In this document: in pieces, positions 3 through 4,224 of the stretch
Position numbering within the stretch: position 1 is the stretch's first letter
Layout of the letters: every line of letters starts with the position of its first letter
The notes under the pieces: generated by a model
What the model was told of the DNA's origin: nothing
Seen by the model: the letters and a program-made list of their open reading frames with translations, nothing else
Database searches by the model: none
Translations under genes and position numbers: made by a program
Assembly: GCA_025358085.1 (NCBI GenBank)
Contig: JANYKT010000078.1
Coordinates: 1 to 40,192 of the forward strand
Reading direction: 5' to 3'
DNA from: Deltaproteobacteria bacterium
GTDB taxonomy: Bacteria; Myxococcota; Myxococcia; Myxococcales; 40CM-4-68-19
Length of the DNA stretch: 40,192 nt

Positions 3-1476
3 TCTCATGATTGATCACTTCTTCCCCGAGCGCCCGGCGCTCCAACCGCGCTCGAGGAGCAATAGGTCGCGAAAGCCGCGAGCGAGGATGAGCCAGCCTG
101 GTTCGCCGTTGGCGCGTACGTGGCCACCGAGTCTGGCGACAGCAAGCAGCGCGTCGCGTACCGAGGGCCGTCGCGGCAGAGGCGTTTTCGAGACGGCGCG
201 CAACACGGCGAGGTGAGATGGGGTGAGCGCGTCGCGCGCCGGGCGCTCGGGCTGATGGCGCGCAAGATGTCGCAGGAGCAGGAGCCGCCAGGCGGTGGGA
301 GCGAGCACGGCGAGCGCGTTGAGCAGCCTCCTGCTGGTAGTGAGTTGGCGGCGTTCGTATTGGCAGCCAGTCTTGAGGGCCTTGAAGTACTCCTCGATCA
401 TCCAGCGCGCGCGATAGCAATCGACGACGTAGGTAATCTGTTTGGGTGTTGCGACAGGCAGGGAAGTCAGTAGAAACCATTCGACGGGGACGTCGCCCCG
501 CGGTGGTTCCGGCTCGAGCACATGGACCACGTTGACGAACATCGTCTTGGGCCCTTTTCCATTCGCAGTGGATGTTCGCGGCAGAGCCACGCGAGTGGCG
601 GCGAAGGTCAGACGCGCGACGCGGGCATCCCGCGCCGGATGCCGTTTTCCCTTCGGGCCTGGAATGTGCGGCCGATAGGAGAGCGAGACTTCGCGTTCAA
701 TCACCGGAGCGGTCCCTCGCGCGACGGTGCGAAGATGCGTTTGTTCCTCGACGCCCGCCAGGACACGGTCGTGATTGGAGCGGATGACGTAGTCCCGGCT
801 CTTCTCCTCCAGACTGGTGAGAATCGAAAACGAGTCGCCCTCTCTATCCATTAGATGGATTGCGCGGACCGAATCAGCAAGCTGCGCTTCCGCCGCCTCC
901 ACGCCCCTGACCCATCGCGCCGACTCTCCCAGGTGGTGTTTCTTCTTTCGCTTCCTCCGGGGGATGGCGGCGCCGTGACGGAAGATGGTCTCCAGCGCAA
1001 GCAATCCGAGCGGCGCGTGGGTCTTGGTCGCCTCCACCGCAAGCGAGAAGTGGCCGAAGAAACCTTGGCCCGGCCGCAGCAGCCGGCCCAGCCCCTCCCG
1101 CTCGGACTCACCGCCAAATTCAAACTCCGTCGTATCGTGAATGACCAAAACGCGCGGCCGCGCCGCCGCTCTCTTCGCCGAGGACGCGAAGTGCGGCTCC
1201 AGCACCGCCTCCGGCTTGACTCGGTCGTTGCCGAAGAATCGATACGCAGCCTCGAGCTGCGACTCGTCCGCAAGCGCCTTCGGAAAGCTCTCCGCGGCTG
1301 TCTCCGACAATTGGTCAGCCATCCTCTCCAGCCGCCGGTTCAGCCGCTCGTCGCCGAGCTGCGCCCCGACGAACTCCGCCGCCAACGGCCGCAGCCGTAG
1401 CACACCTGTCGCTCGTCTCATTTCCCACTACAAATCAGAGGGGTCTGACACTGATCGGATGTGTAGGATCATGAGA
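3..1476 (-). mobile_element. IS4-family (IS50/Tn5-like) insertion sequence, apparently complete
   Basis: The element contains one transposase gene bounded by imperfect terminal inverted repeats. The left end (from base 3) and the right end (reverse complement from base 1476) both read TCTCATGAT, and the match continues as nnnnCACnTC, about 14 of 19 positions. The transposase stop codon sits inside the left repeat, as in IS50, and the repeat-to-repeat length of about 1.47 kb is normal for the family. Only two bases lie outside the left end in this window, so the target duplication cannot be checked. The outer boundaries may be off by one or two bases. Confidence 0.8.
15..1421 (-). CDS. IS4-family transposase (Tn5/IS50-like)
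   Basis: DDE transposase that catalyses cut-and-paste movement of the surrounding element. The N-terminal part (about residues 15-77) matches the Tn5-type DNA-binding domain, with an LGDERL segment and an AAYRFF segment. The catalytic core shows the first aspartate in HDTTEF (D96), the second in MDREGD (D192), and a perfect YREK signature Y-x2-R-x3-E-x6-K at Y336, R339, E343 and K350. At 468 residues it is close to the 476 of Tn5 transposase. The frame is open throughout and both inverted repeats are present, so it is probably functional or recently inserted. No accessory gene is carried. Confidence 0.92.
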   Translation of the reverse strand: MRRATGVLRLRPLAAEFVGAQLGDERLNRRLERMADQLSETAAESFPKALADESQLEAAYRFFGNDRVKPEAVLEPHFASSAKRAAARPRVLVIHDTTEFEFGGESEREGLGRLLRPGQGFFGHFSLAVEATKTHAPLGLLALETIFRHGAAIPRRKRKKKHHLGESARWVRGVEAAEAQLADSVRAIHLMDREGDSFSILTSLEEKSRDYVIRSNHDRVLAGVEEQTHLRTVARGTAPVIEREVSLSYRPHIPGPKGKRHPARDARVARLTFAATRVALPRTSTANGKGPKTMFVNVVHVLEPEPPRGDVPVEWFLLTSLPVATPKQITYVVDCYRARWMIEEYFKALKTGCQYERRQLTTSRRLLNALAVLAPTAWRLLLLRHLARHQPERPARDALTPSHLAVLRAVSKTPLPRRPSVRDALLAVARLGGHVRANGEPGWLILARGFRDLLLLERGWSAGRSGKK

Positions 1477-1507: not shown

Positions 1508-1840
1508 CTAGCCTACCGTGACCTTACGTACGCCCCTGATTTCCAGCAGTTCGGGGAGCCGGGCGCGCTGGTCTCCCTGCAGGATCAGCGTCGCGCCTTC
1601 CACGGTGCCTCCGCACCCAAGCGACTGTTTGAGCGCCTTCAGCCAGACCTCCAGCTGCTTCGCCGGAAGATTGAGTTGTTCAACCACCGTGACCTCCTTG
1701 CCCCCGCGTCCCTTGCGTTCCATCCGCACCACCGCGCGCGCGGGGCCCTTCGCTTCCTTTTCGATTTGCTTCGGCCCTTCCGGCAGCGACCCGCGAGCCC
1801 CTTGCAGCTTGCCAAACGGGTTGTTGAACGGATCAGACAT
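1508..1840 (-). CDS. SUI1/YciH-family translation initiation factor
   Basis: A small basic protein of 110 residues matching the SUI1 (eIF1/YciH) fold, whose bacterial members are thought to influence initiation-codon selection on the 30S subunit. The diagnostic part is the C-terminal two thirds: a strand with VRMERKGRGGKEVTVV, then LKQSLGCGGTVEG, then a final strand ending in the GVRKVTVG region. The first 35 residues are a polar, lysine- and proline-containing tail, as in other bacterial members. It is divergent from hemH with only 48 bases between the start codons, so the two probably share a promoter region. The stop codon lies about 30 bases from the IS end, so the insertion just missed the gene. 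Confidence 0.88.
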   Translation of the reverse strand: MSDPFNNPFGKLQGARGSLPEGPKQIEKEAKGPARAVVRMERKGRGGKEVTVVEQLNLPAKQLEVWLKALKQSLGCGGTVEGATLILQGDQRARLPELLEIRGVRKVTVG

Positions 1841-1888: not shown

Positions 1889-2902
1889 ATGAATGGAGTC
1901 CTGCTCATCAATCTCGGCACTCCGGACGCTCCGCAGAGCGGACCGGTACGCACCTACCTGCGTGAGTTCCTCAGCGACCCGCGCGTCGTCGACATCAATC
2001 CGGTGGGGCGCAAGCTGCTGCTCGAGGCGGTCATCCTGCCGCTGCGTCCTGCCAAAAGCGCCGCGGCCTATCGGAAGGTCTGGACCGATCGCGGCTCGCC
2101 TTTGCTGGTGGAGAGTCTGGCGCTGACCGACCGCGTACGCGCGGTGCTTGCTATGCCGGTCGAGCTGGGTATGCGCTATGGGAATCCCCCGATTGCAGCG
2201 GCTTTGCGCAAGCTGGTGGACGCTCGTGTCGATCGCATCACCATCGCTCCGCTTTATCCGCAGTATTCATCGGCAGCGACGGGCTCTTCGCTCGAAGAAG
2301 TCTACCGGCAGGTGGGCAAGCTCGATGTCGTCCCCAATGTTTCGACGCTGCCGCCGTTCTATGACGACCCGCGCTTCATCGAGGCTTTCGCGCTGCAGGG
2401 AGAGCCGGTGCTCGCGCGCGAGAAGCCCGACCATGTCCTGTTCAGTTTTCATGGCTTGCCGGAGCGGCACGTGCGGCGAACCGACCCGACTGGCAAGCAT
2501 TGCCTGCAATCGCCGCAATGCTGCGATTCAATGATCGATGCCAATCGCGATTGCTATCGTGCGCAATGCTTCGCGACCGCGCGCGCGCTGATTGCGCGGC
2601 TGGCGCTGTCGGCAGACCGGACGACCGTCTGCTTCCAGAGCCGGCTCGGCCGGACGCCGTGGATCAAGCCCTATACCGACCTGGTACTGCCCGAGCTTTT
2701 TGCACGCGGGGTGAAGCGCATCGCGGTCTTCTGCCCGGCCTTCGTGGCCGACTGCCTCGAGACGCTCGAAGAGATCGGCCTGCGCGCGCGAGACCAGTGG
2801 CTCGGCCTGGGCGGCGAATCGCTCGCGCTCGTTCCGTCACTCAATTCCTCCGATGCCTGGGTCACCTCGCTCACCGCCCTGCTCCAACCCCACCTGCATT
2901 GA
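1889..2902 (+). CDS. hemH: Ferrochelatase, predicted [2Fe-2S]-containing type
   Basis: Inserts ferrous iron into protoporphyrin IX in the last step of protoheme synthesis. The ATG at 1889 gives the normal N-terminus (VLLINLGTP) and a 337-residue protein; the open frame runs further upstream but would cross the divergent gene. Visible family motifs are the metal-binding histidine in SFHGLPERH (H188) and the CPAFVADCLETLEE block (282-295) with its conserved glutamate. Between them lies an insertion rich in cysteine (C205, C211, C212, C222, C227). Known: Myxococcus and Bdellovibrio ferrochelatases bind a [2Fe-2S] cluster through four internal cysteines. That this one does so is inferred. No strong Shine-Dalgarno is visible before the ATG. 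Confidence 0.95.
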   Translation: MNGVLLINLGTPDAPQSGPVRTYLREFLSDPRVVDINPVGRKLLLEAVILPLRPAKSAAAYRKVWTDRGSPLLVESLALTDRVRAVLAMPVELGMRYGNPPIAAALRKLVDARVDRITIAPLYPQYSSAATGSSLEEVYRQVGKLDVVPNVSTLPPFYDDPRFIEAFALQGEPVLAREKPDHVLFSFHGLPERHVRRTDPTGKHCLQSPQCCDSMIDANRDCYRAQCFATARALIARLALSADRTTVCFQSRLGRTPWIKPYTDLVLPELFARGVKRIAVFCPAFVADCLETLEEIGLRARDQWLGLGGESLALVPSLNSSDAWVTSLTALLQPHLH

Positions 2903-2905
2903 CAG

Positions 2906-3012
2906 GGGGACACCATACGCATTTCGCGCCGATTTCTTGATATGAGGACGCCGTACCCATTGAGCGCCGATTTCAACCGGGTCCGCTTGATCTAAATCAG
3001 TATGGTGTCCCC
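2906..3012. repeat. REP/MITE-like element with 13-bp terminal inverted repeats
   Basis: A 107-base intergenic block begins with GGGGACACCATAC (2906-2918) and ends with its exact reverse complement (3000-3012). Four further bases match inside each arm (ATTT after a two-base gap). Internally the ten-base word GCGCCGATTT occurs twice (about 2926 and 2964). The block fills almost the whole gap between the hemH stop and the convergent methyltransferase stop, ends within four bases of the latter, and holds no ORF. It could be a non-autonomous mobile repeat or a REP-type palindrome. It might also act as a bidirectional terminator, but there is no U-tract. Confidence 0.7.
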
Positions 3013-3015
3013 ACA

Positions 3016-4224
3016 TTAACGGCGGTCCCAGATTGCGGCGAAGAAAGCGTCGGTGTCGTGGAGGTACGGGAGGCAGCGGAAAAAGCCTTCGCTGGTCGGG
3101 CAGACGGCAGGCATCTGGCGCAGGAATTCTGGATGAGCCTGCTCGAAGGCCAACGCGACGTCCTCATTCTCTTCTCTTCGCAGCGTGCAGGTTCCGTAGA
3201 CCAGCCGGTTGCGCGCCAGCGGCGCGGCGCGCTCGAGCAGCGCTCGTTGCAGCGCAGGAAAACCGGCCGCGGCGGCTTCTCCTTTGCGCCAGCGAGCGTC
3301 CGGCCCGCGGCGCAGCGTCCCGAGTTCGGAGCAAGGAGCGTCCACCAGGACTCGATCGCTCTCTCGCGGCACGGCAACTTCGATGCAGGTCGCAAAGGCC
3401 TTGGCGGCGCGGCGCGCGAGCCTCTGCAACCGCTCTTGGTCCGGGTCGTGCGCGATCACCGCGCCGCGGTTTTGCAGGTGCGCTGCGAGCTGCAGCGACT
3501 TGCCGCCAGCGCCCGCGCACAGGTCGAGAATCGTCTCGCCGGGCTCCGCGGCCACCAGCTCGCCGAGGAGCTGGCTGCCCTCGTCCTGCGCTTCAAAAAG
3601 TCCCGCGCGAGCGCTCGCCAGGCCGAGCAGATTGGGCCGCGGTGTAGTGACCACGAGGCCGTCGCGCGCGAGCAGGGCCAGGCGCGTGGTCAGGCCTTCC
3701 GCTGTCAGCCGCCCCGCCAATTCTTCGCGCGAACAGCGCAGCGTATTGGCGCGCAGACAGACGGGGCCCGGGGCGCAGATGGCCTCGGCGAAAGCAGCAG
3801 CGCCTTCGGGGCCGAGCTCACGGACGAAGAGAGCGGAGAGCCAATCCGGCAGCGAGAATCGGTCCGCAAGCGGCTCGGGTGCGGGCCTTCTCGGTGGCTC
3901 CTGCGCTACCCCGCAGAGCGCGCCGGCGTCTTCGCGGCCAGCAAGATCGCGCAGCAGCGCAAAGAGCAGCAGCCGGGCTTCGGGCGAGCCTGCGTGAAAG
4001 GCCAGCCGTCGCCGCCAGAGCGCGACACCAAAGATGGCCTCGACCAGCGCCGCGCGACCCGGCCGATCCAGGTCGCGCGCCGAGCGCAGCGAGCGATCCA
4101 CCTCGCGCTCGGCCGCGGACCCCGAAAGTACGCGCTCGATGGCGGGTAGCGCGAGGTCCAGGCGCAACGCCTCCCAAGGCACACCGCGCAGGCGCTCGAT
4201 GATGGAGTCCATCGCGGGCCCCAT
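3016..4224 (-). CDS. rsmB: RsmB/NOP2-type 16S rRNA (cytosine-C5) methyltransferase
   Basis: S-adenosylmethionine-dependent RNA m5C methyltransferase; RsmB itself modifies C967 of 16S rRNA. The N-terminal 110 residues are helical and alanine/arginine rich, in the place of the NusB-like domain. The catalytic domain follows: a SAM-binding loop DLCAGAGGKS (about 234-243), motif IV DAPCS with C298, and motif VI YGTCTL with C346, the usual nucleophile. At 402 residues it is slightly shorter than E. coli RsmB (429). Start choice is between ATG 4224 and ATG 4212; both are close to a G-rich stretch. The symbol is by family; substrate position is not proven, and another NOP2/Sun member is possible. Confidence 0.85.
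   Translation of the reverse strand: MGPAMDSIIERLRGVPWEALRLDLALPAIERVLSGSAAEREVDRSLRSARDLDRPGRAALVEAIFGVALWRRRLAFHAGSPEARLLLFALLRDLAGREDAGALCGVAQEPPRRPAPEPLADRFSLPDWLSALFVRELGPEGAAAFAEAICAPGPVCLRANTLRCSREELAGRLTAEGLTTRLALLARDGLVVTTPRPNLLGLASARAGLFEAQDEGSQLLGELVAAEPGETILDLCAGAGGKSLQLAAHLQNRGAVIAHDPDQERLQRLARRAAKAFATCIEVAVPRESDRVLVDAPCSELGTLRRGPDARWRKGEAAAAGFPALQRALLERAAPLARNRLVYGTCTLRREENEDVALAFEQAHPEFLRQMPAVCPTSEGFFRCLPYLHDTDAFFAAIWDRR

Follow-up and report, generated by a model that had tools for sequence, protein, structure and literature searches.

REPINs and BIMEs, which were reportedly described together with RAYTs by Bertels and Rainey in 2011, are said to be inverted repeat pairs with a dedicated transposase gene. 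In the TIRtrons, a Y1 transposase (TIRYT) lies between inverted TIRs that carry the motif GGGGWSAS (Di Nocera et al. 2013, PMC3733652). According to the part of that paper available to us, TIRs are moderately abundant and dispersed as single units, dimers and groups, and the reported families come from other species, being highest in Stenotrophomonas maltophilia. The TIR families of TIRYTs were thus named in 2013; our literature searches brought up nothing on the mechanism of either the families or the enzymes. TnpAREP subclass 2.1, which is largely Bertels group 1, is described in the accessible text of Quentin et al. (2018, PMC6006769) as having the flanking consensus GGGG[AT][CG]A[CG] and an extension after the HUH core, and that text reports no REP-like sequences beside subclass 2.1 genes.

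The locus considered here is a repeat block in a window of 40,192 nucleotides, which is contig C7 of a 5.42-Mb genome (G000, the host genome). Very probably, this block is a non-autonomous array whose terminal repeat units belong to the one TIRYT-type Y1 (HUH) transposase of the host, the gene for which lies on a different contig, C129. The general kind is already known, and what is found here is a new TIR repeat family member with its own TIRYT in the same genome. As in TIRtrons, GGGGACAC fits GGGGWSAS in all exact copies, the C129 transposase has a HUH motif and a catalytic tyrosine, its gene is flanked by inverted units, and the units are dispersed as singles, dimers and groups. In contrast to what is seen here and in related genomes, neither complementary flank and inner triplets nor 13-bp tandem arrays nor the candidate stop-codon docking are described for TIRs in what we could consult of PMC3733652. 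The likeness to subclass 2.1, judged by its published description in the text at hand, lies in the flanking consensus and the extension after the HUH core; the differences are that the units are dispersed here and that the HTH/Bac_DnaA_C match of the subclass was not found in a Pfam search with the C129 protein. With REPINs/BIMEs and RAYTs, as presented in the accessible part of Nunvar et al. (2010, PMC2817692), the units share their arrangement as inverted pairs of short repeats outside genes, their clustering and a dedicated transposase gene that they flank. Unlike classical REPs and REPINs, the units have no GTAG-type head and no stable palindrome of their own. The initial annotation had offered a REP as one identity for the block; this holds for the TIR type (GGGGWSAS), linked to TIRYTs and so related to RAYTs, but not for the classical GTAG REP. 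Finally, the modelled C129 protein shares the HUH-Y1 fold of IS200/IS605 elements (IS608, ISDra2), and the complementarity of flank and inner triplets resembles their pairing of cleavage site and guide as far as PMC8266576 was available, although the units lack the subterminal stable hairpin and its 5' tetranucleotide guide, and the proposed guide is 3' of the core word.

The repeat block and its copies in the host genome

The block (Table 1) had initially been noted for its perfect 13-bp inverted ends, a repeated ten-base internal word and its position between two convergent stop codons, and each of these observations holds. The arms are exact and form the one perfect 13-bp inverted repeat spanning at most 120 bp in the window. 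Thirty mononucleotide shuffles of the window gave 11 such repeats in total, or about one per three windows of the same composition, so that perfect arms alone are unremarkable, and we have dropped them as stand-alone evidence. The limits first proposed, those of the arms, are slightly off: by the unit consensus, conserved sequence reaches at least 5 bases outside each arm. The ten-base word is part of a larger repeat, being the conserved tail of two head-to-tail copies with a 38-bp period and 30/38 identical positions, an identity reached in none of 2000 shuffles of the region (best shuffle 23). The block is a three-unit array of two head-to-tail left units, the second of them decayed, and one inverted right unit, rather than the single MITE that had been considered. 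The flank of the first copy is degenerate with respect to the class A consensus AAT (see below), and the 13-mer of the second, GAGGACGCCGTAC (2944-2956), matches at 10/13 positions. The decayed third unit hidden inside the window copy explains why no simple pair among the host copies listed is longer. The array folds as a hairpin (DNA z -2.4, RNA z -2.7). Elsewhere in the window, an IS4-like transposase gene (Tnp_DNA_bind and DDE_Tnp_1; 15-1385, minus strand) lies near the contig start and a small SUI1-family translation factor gene (1508-1840, minus strand) lies beside the ferrochelatase gene.

Table 1. Features of the repeat block and the genes that converge on it (window positions).
Feature	Coordinates	Strand	Description
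Ferrochelatase gene	1889..2902	+	Pfam PF00762, 308 bits; TGA (2900-2902) at -6..-4 of left unit
Left unit, tandem copy 1	2899..2936	+	flank GAC (2901-2903), 13-mer 2906-2918, inner ATT (2921-2923), tail GCGCCGATTTC
Left unit, tandem copy 2, decayed	2937..2974	+	flank GAT (2939-2941), inner ATT (2959-2961), tail as copy 1
Right unit	2995..3017	-	13-mer 3000-3012, inner ATT (2997-2995), flank AAT (3017-3015)
Whole reported array	2906..3012		closed by perfect 13-bp inverted repeat
16S rRNA methyltransferase RsmB/F gene	3016..4224	-	Pfam PF01189, 106 bits; TAA (3018-3016) inside right unit's TTAAT flank

The 13-mer GGGGACACCATAC occurs exactly 68 times in the host genome (31 forward, 37 reverse) and 116 times with up to one mismatch (53 forward, 63 reverse), against none for the reversed control, and this copy number shows the block to be non-random. 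The copies are spread over dozens of contigs, and the many dispersed copies with the same ends that the initial annotation had proposed to look for therefore exist. Counts of units, clusters and gene ends in the host refer to stretches around 100 of the 116 places, among the matches listed. Most of these copies are inverted pairs of 39-107 bp; there are also arrays of the ++-, +-- and ++-- kinds and some single units. Tandem units have periods of 35-68 bp. Fifteen pairs of neighbouring units on the same strand were compared within arrays, 14 of them in the host and one in the relative G010. Some are close copies, for example 45/51 at locus L027, 33/37 at the transposase locus and, at most, 37/37 in G010; others have little match outside the unit.

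The 102 distinct units among the matches listed were assigned by their inner sequence to class A (77; loose match to ATTT at 16-19) or class B (20; loose match to AACTC), with two units in both classes and seven in neither. A class A unit consists of AAT at -5 to -3, two variable bases, the 13-mer, two further variable bases and ATTT at 16-19, giving the consensus AATNYGGGGACACCATACKSATTT. The inner positions are strongly conserved (16 A 100%, 17 T 93%, 18 T 100%), partly because positions 16-19 were used to define the class. The flank (-5 A 96%, -4 A 98%, -3 T 83%) is free of that effect, and its conservation indicates that conserved sequence goes past the ends originally reported. Class B units have another inner sequence and no flank consensus. 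Those at nine loci (L013, L059, L066, L067, L076, L077, L081, L085 and L086) have other, longer arms (GCAACTC..GTGCCAA), which resemble those of G010 but lack the G010 flank motif; no transposase belonging to them was found in the host genome.

The C129 transposase and related words in other genomes

Among 15 Y1_Tnp matches in the host genome, one, at G000:C129:2575-3285 (minus strand), has the word on both sides. Two units lie 123 and 68 bases ahead of its start codon, and one exact and one one-mismatch unit lie downstream, so that the gene is flanked by units in inverted orientation, as the definition of a TIRtron requires. The protein matches Pfam Y1_Tnp with 51 bits and has an HVH motif and a tyrosine in the context YVELNP; H60, H62 and Y119 are invariant across an alignment of 29 sequences. 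Its predicted structure (mean pLDDT 88.7) has as its best PDB match by fold 4er8 (E 1.3e-9), a REP-associated transposase bound to a REP hairpin, which is also the best match by sequence. The NCBIfam model REP_Tyr_transpos (NF047646) scores 69.3 bits (E 3e-19), below its 80-bit cut-off. The further Pfam match, HetR_C, is under its own cut-off, and the model has helices at 141-204. As judged from its sequence, with the HUH and tyrosine motifs intact, the enzyme is a TIRYT, a Y1 (HUH) relative of REP-associated transposases. A genomic RAYT or insertion sequence sharing the ends, another check that had been proposed, is thereby found, and of the original reading, a MITE or a REP mobilised by a RAYT, the mobile repeat with a RAYT-like Y1 gene stands.

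The 14 further Y1_Tnp matches (L040-L053) include several of another protein type and one inside the rsmD-coaD junction (L065). In the loci read, the word does not flank these genes; the exception is C171, where the Y1 gene is placed between two units of the same strand, at distances of about 0.2 and 0.65 kb. An inverted repeat of GGGGACACGGAGG at this gene was not counted as an end, as it starts inside the coding frame.

The position of the word around the C129 gene also bears on whether the block might be a classical MITE of a DDE insertion sequence with common ends, as its perfect inverted ends, its lack of an ORF and the IS4-like DDE transposase gene of the window could suggest. That word occurs only twice in the window and not around the IS4-like gene, yet it flanks a Y1 gene on both sides; no target-site duplication was seen by eye among the matches listed, and many copies, being single units or tandems on one strand, do not look like a MITE. 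We consider such an origin highly improbable.

The exact word was sought in 60 genomes, comprising the host, 11 same-family relatives and 48 genomes from outside the family. It is present in seven, namely the host and six of the 11 relatives (G004, 1 copy; G007, 1; G008, 3; G009, 5; G010, 30; G011, 4), and in none of the 48 outside the family. The initial annotation had tentatively linked the word to dispersed repeats in other proteobacteria; for the exact word this does not hold beyond the family in the genomes searched, although alphaproteobacterial TIRYTs carry the related GGTGACAGTGCAC. At E <= 1e-20, TIRYT relatives were found only in G000, G007, G010 and G011; G004, G008 and G009 have copies of the word without a detected TIRYT gene, some of the genomes being incomplete. 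Dispersed words agree in sequence with those that flank the genome's own TIRYTs in the relatives examined. Words of the CTTCC, CCTTC and AATAC types accompany the three TIRYTs of G011 and also occur dispersed in that genome, where the 96 GGGGACACNNTNC sites are mostly of these types and close variants, among the matches listed. Similarly, AATAC flanks one of the three TIRYTs of G007 and is found at six of the 12 sites listed out of 41. At four loci of G007 and G011 (L126, L128, L129 and L131), the core word is repeated in tandem at the TIRYT end, with a repeat length of 13 or 14 bp and a separate word for each gene.

Named genomes, for the most part of Bradyrhizobium and other Alphaproteobacteria, supplied a further 44 TIRYT loci. 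Most have GGTGACAGTGCAC-type ends about 50 bp ahead of the start codon, and CGGTGACAGTGCA is present in 16 of 20 of these genomes, with 1 to 36 copies against no more than 1 for the control. In a tree of 36 proteins, in which the placement of the long branches L133 and L151 is unsure, GGGGACAC-type ends fall in the same-family clade and GGTGACAG-type ends in the alphaproteobacterial clade. A single bacterial family thus provides several transposase/word pairs that differ in core word and flank motif, and with these both the recognition of the word and the proposed guide pairing can be put to a direct test in vitro.

The same distribution is relevant to the idea of a host element kept by selection at gene ends, be it a bidirectional terminator, an mRNA-stabilizing hairpin or a protein-binding site. 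With a home-made gene caller, 19 of 59 host clusters (among the matches listed) have convergent genes on their two sides and 26 have co-directional ones, and the hairpin potential of the block points the same way. Against this, the word is found in just seven of the 60 genomes, its own included, and varies with the local transposase; at the block itself there is neither a terminator match nor an Rfam family, and the candidates of an intrinsic terminator, a known RNA family and a DDE MITE went without support there. A host element as the origin of the units is improbable in our estimation, and a host regulatory or structural function could be a secondary role of the block.

Orthologous junctions with and without units

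Evidence on mobility comes from junctions at which the neighbouring genes can be matched between genomes. At L038 (contig C102), two convergent genes are adjacent in the host and in five relatives. The host has 73 bp between the stops, of which 63 bp are a unit pair; the gaps in the relatives are 9 (G010), -29 (G007), -16 (G005), 7 (G001) and 138 bp (G003), and neither GGGGACA nor TGTCCCC occurs at the junction in any of these five. The comparison is between genera, at 39-72% protein identity, and the remaining relatives compared did not show the two genes as neighbours. In G003 the 138-bp intergenic junction (L296) holds a different palindromic repeat, CCAATGATTGG and variants. The rsmD-coaD junction (C171) has a 2.0-kb gap in the host that contains, besides two units on one strand, a Y1 gene belonging to another type; rsmD and coaD lie within 65 bp of each other, with no units, in G001, G004, G005, G007 and G011. 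This is weaker evidence than L038, because G002, G008, G009 and G010 hold other DNA in the gap. For the window junction no orthologous empty site was found, the ferrochelatase and RsmB matches lying apart in relatives, and the genes beside two other units gave homologues in relatives but no usable junction.

That units are present or absent at orthologous sites fits a mobile element and, together with the six of 11 same-family genomes that hold the word, provides the variation among relatives that had initially been proposed as a check. Mobility is thereby supported at the level of sequence comparison between genera (L038 and rsmD-coaD), rather than between strains of one species. The shared word, the copy number, the inverted and tandem layout, the intact motifs and the absence at L038 together support reading the block as a mobile repeat. 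The tandem units, with their near-identical neighbours, and the arrays of 13-14-bp direct repeats at the G007 and G011 loci could also be taken to mean that units spread from the transposase locus by replication slippage and recombination, with the transposase only the nuclease that starts the event. On its own, such a process would leave both the dispersal over dozens of contigs and the clean insertion at L038 unexplained, and we give it little credence.

For a mobile array served by the C129 transposase, we infer the following scheme. The enzyme would recognize the unit (13-base core, outer flank triplet and complementary inner triplet) as single-stranded DNA and cut next to it with the HUH/tyrosine chemistry that IS200/IS605 and TnpAREP proteins use; unit pairs would thereby be copied or moved into gene ends. 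Tandem units may arise from repeated local insertion or from duplication, and the window copy would be an old copy in decay. Two findings tell against this account: there are 30 copies of the word in G010, in which the TIRYT frame (L127/L220) is without the N-terminal HHxTQRGN part, and the class B units (20 of 102) are not explained by the C129 gene. The NCBIfam score below the cut-off and the failure to find an orthologous empty site for the window junction also count against it.

Flank and inner triplets, and stop codons at the units

The flank triplet at -5 to -3 was compared with the inner triplet at 16-18 in 49 TIRYT loci (L127, L130 and L175 being left out). An upstream end was available in 43, four of which are array ends. 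At 32 of the remaining 39 the two triplets are fully complementary, as compared with 19/39 for the next best register. The pair types (ATT/AAT, 27; AAT/ATT, 2; GTT/AAC, 2; ATA/TAT, 1) include two-sided changes at each of the three pairs. Within genomes, complementary pairing amounts to 16/20 in G011 (25 of 2000 permutations as high) and 5/17 in G073 (67 of 2000), and it does not exceed permutation in G062 (14/31), G070 (29/36), G007 (2/8), G074 (1/7) and G008 (0/4). The complementarity, with compensatory changes between families, suggests the hypothesis that the two triplets act in a guide/target-like manner. Several points weaken this reading: three pairs are a small number, the sequences share ancestry, mispairing is frequent at the other end of a locus, and in five of the seven within-genome tests the pairing does not rise above permutation.

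In the host, where gene ends were called by the home-made codon-usage method and units are those among the matches listed, 48 gene ends face a unit within 40 bp, and 15 of these stop exactly at -4 (12 TAA, 3 TGA). A TAAT flank places a TAA at that position; among other genes of the same loci, TAA is used by seven of 54. A second method gave 16 genes stopping at -4 and eight reading into the unit, read-ins being fewer than the 2:1 expected for random frames. In G010, with the flank GAGAT, five of 11 gene ends stop at -6. A comparable contribution of stop codons has already been published for GTAG REPs, according to the text of PMC3733652 that we could consult. A stop peak predicted at -5 in two alphaproteobacterial genomes failed (0/4 gene ends), and docking on stop codons as a general rule was dropped. 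The idea of docking is thus a hypothesis for the two genomes, G000 and G010, in which stop codons fall exactly within the flank motif.

A doubtful but possible extension is that TIRYT units choose their landing site by pairing, with 16-18 as guide and -5 to -3 as target, such that a new guide would bring a new target; in the host lineage the targets would overlap stop codons (TAAT in the host itself, TGAGAT in one relative), and units might dock on gene ends without harm to the gene. The ends of the RsmB/F, ferrochelatase, L038 and L015 genes lie within about 0-5 residues of those of several homologues, others being longer, and the C-terminus of RsmB/F is equal in length to that of its G005 homologue.
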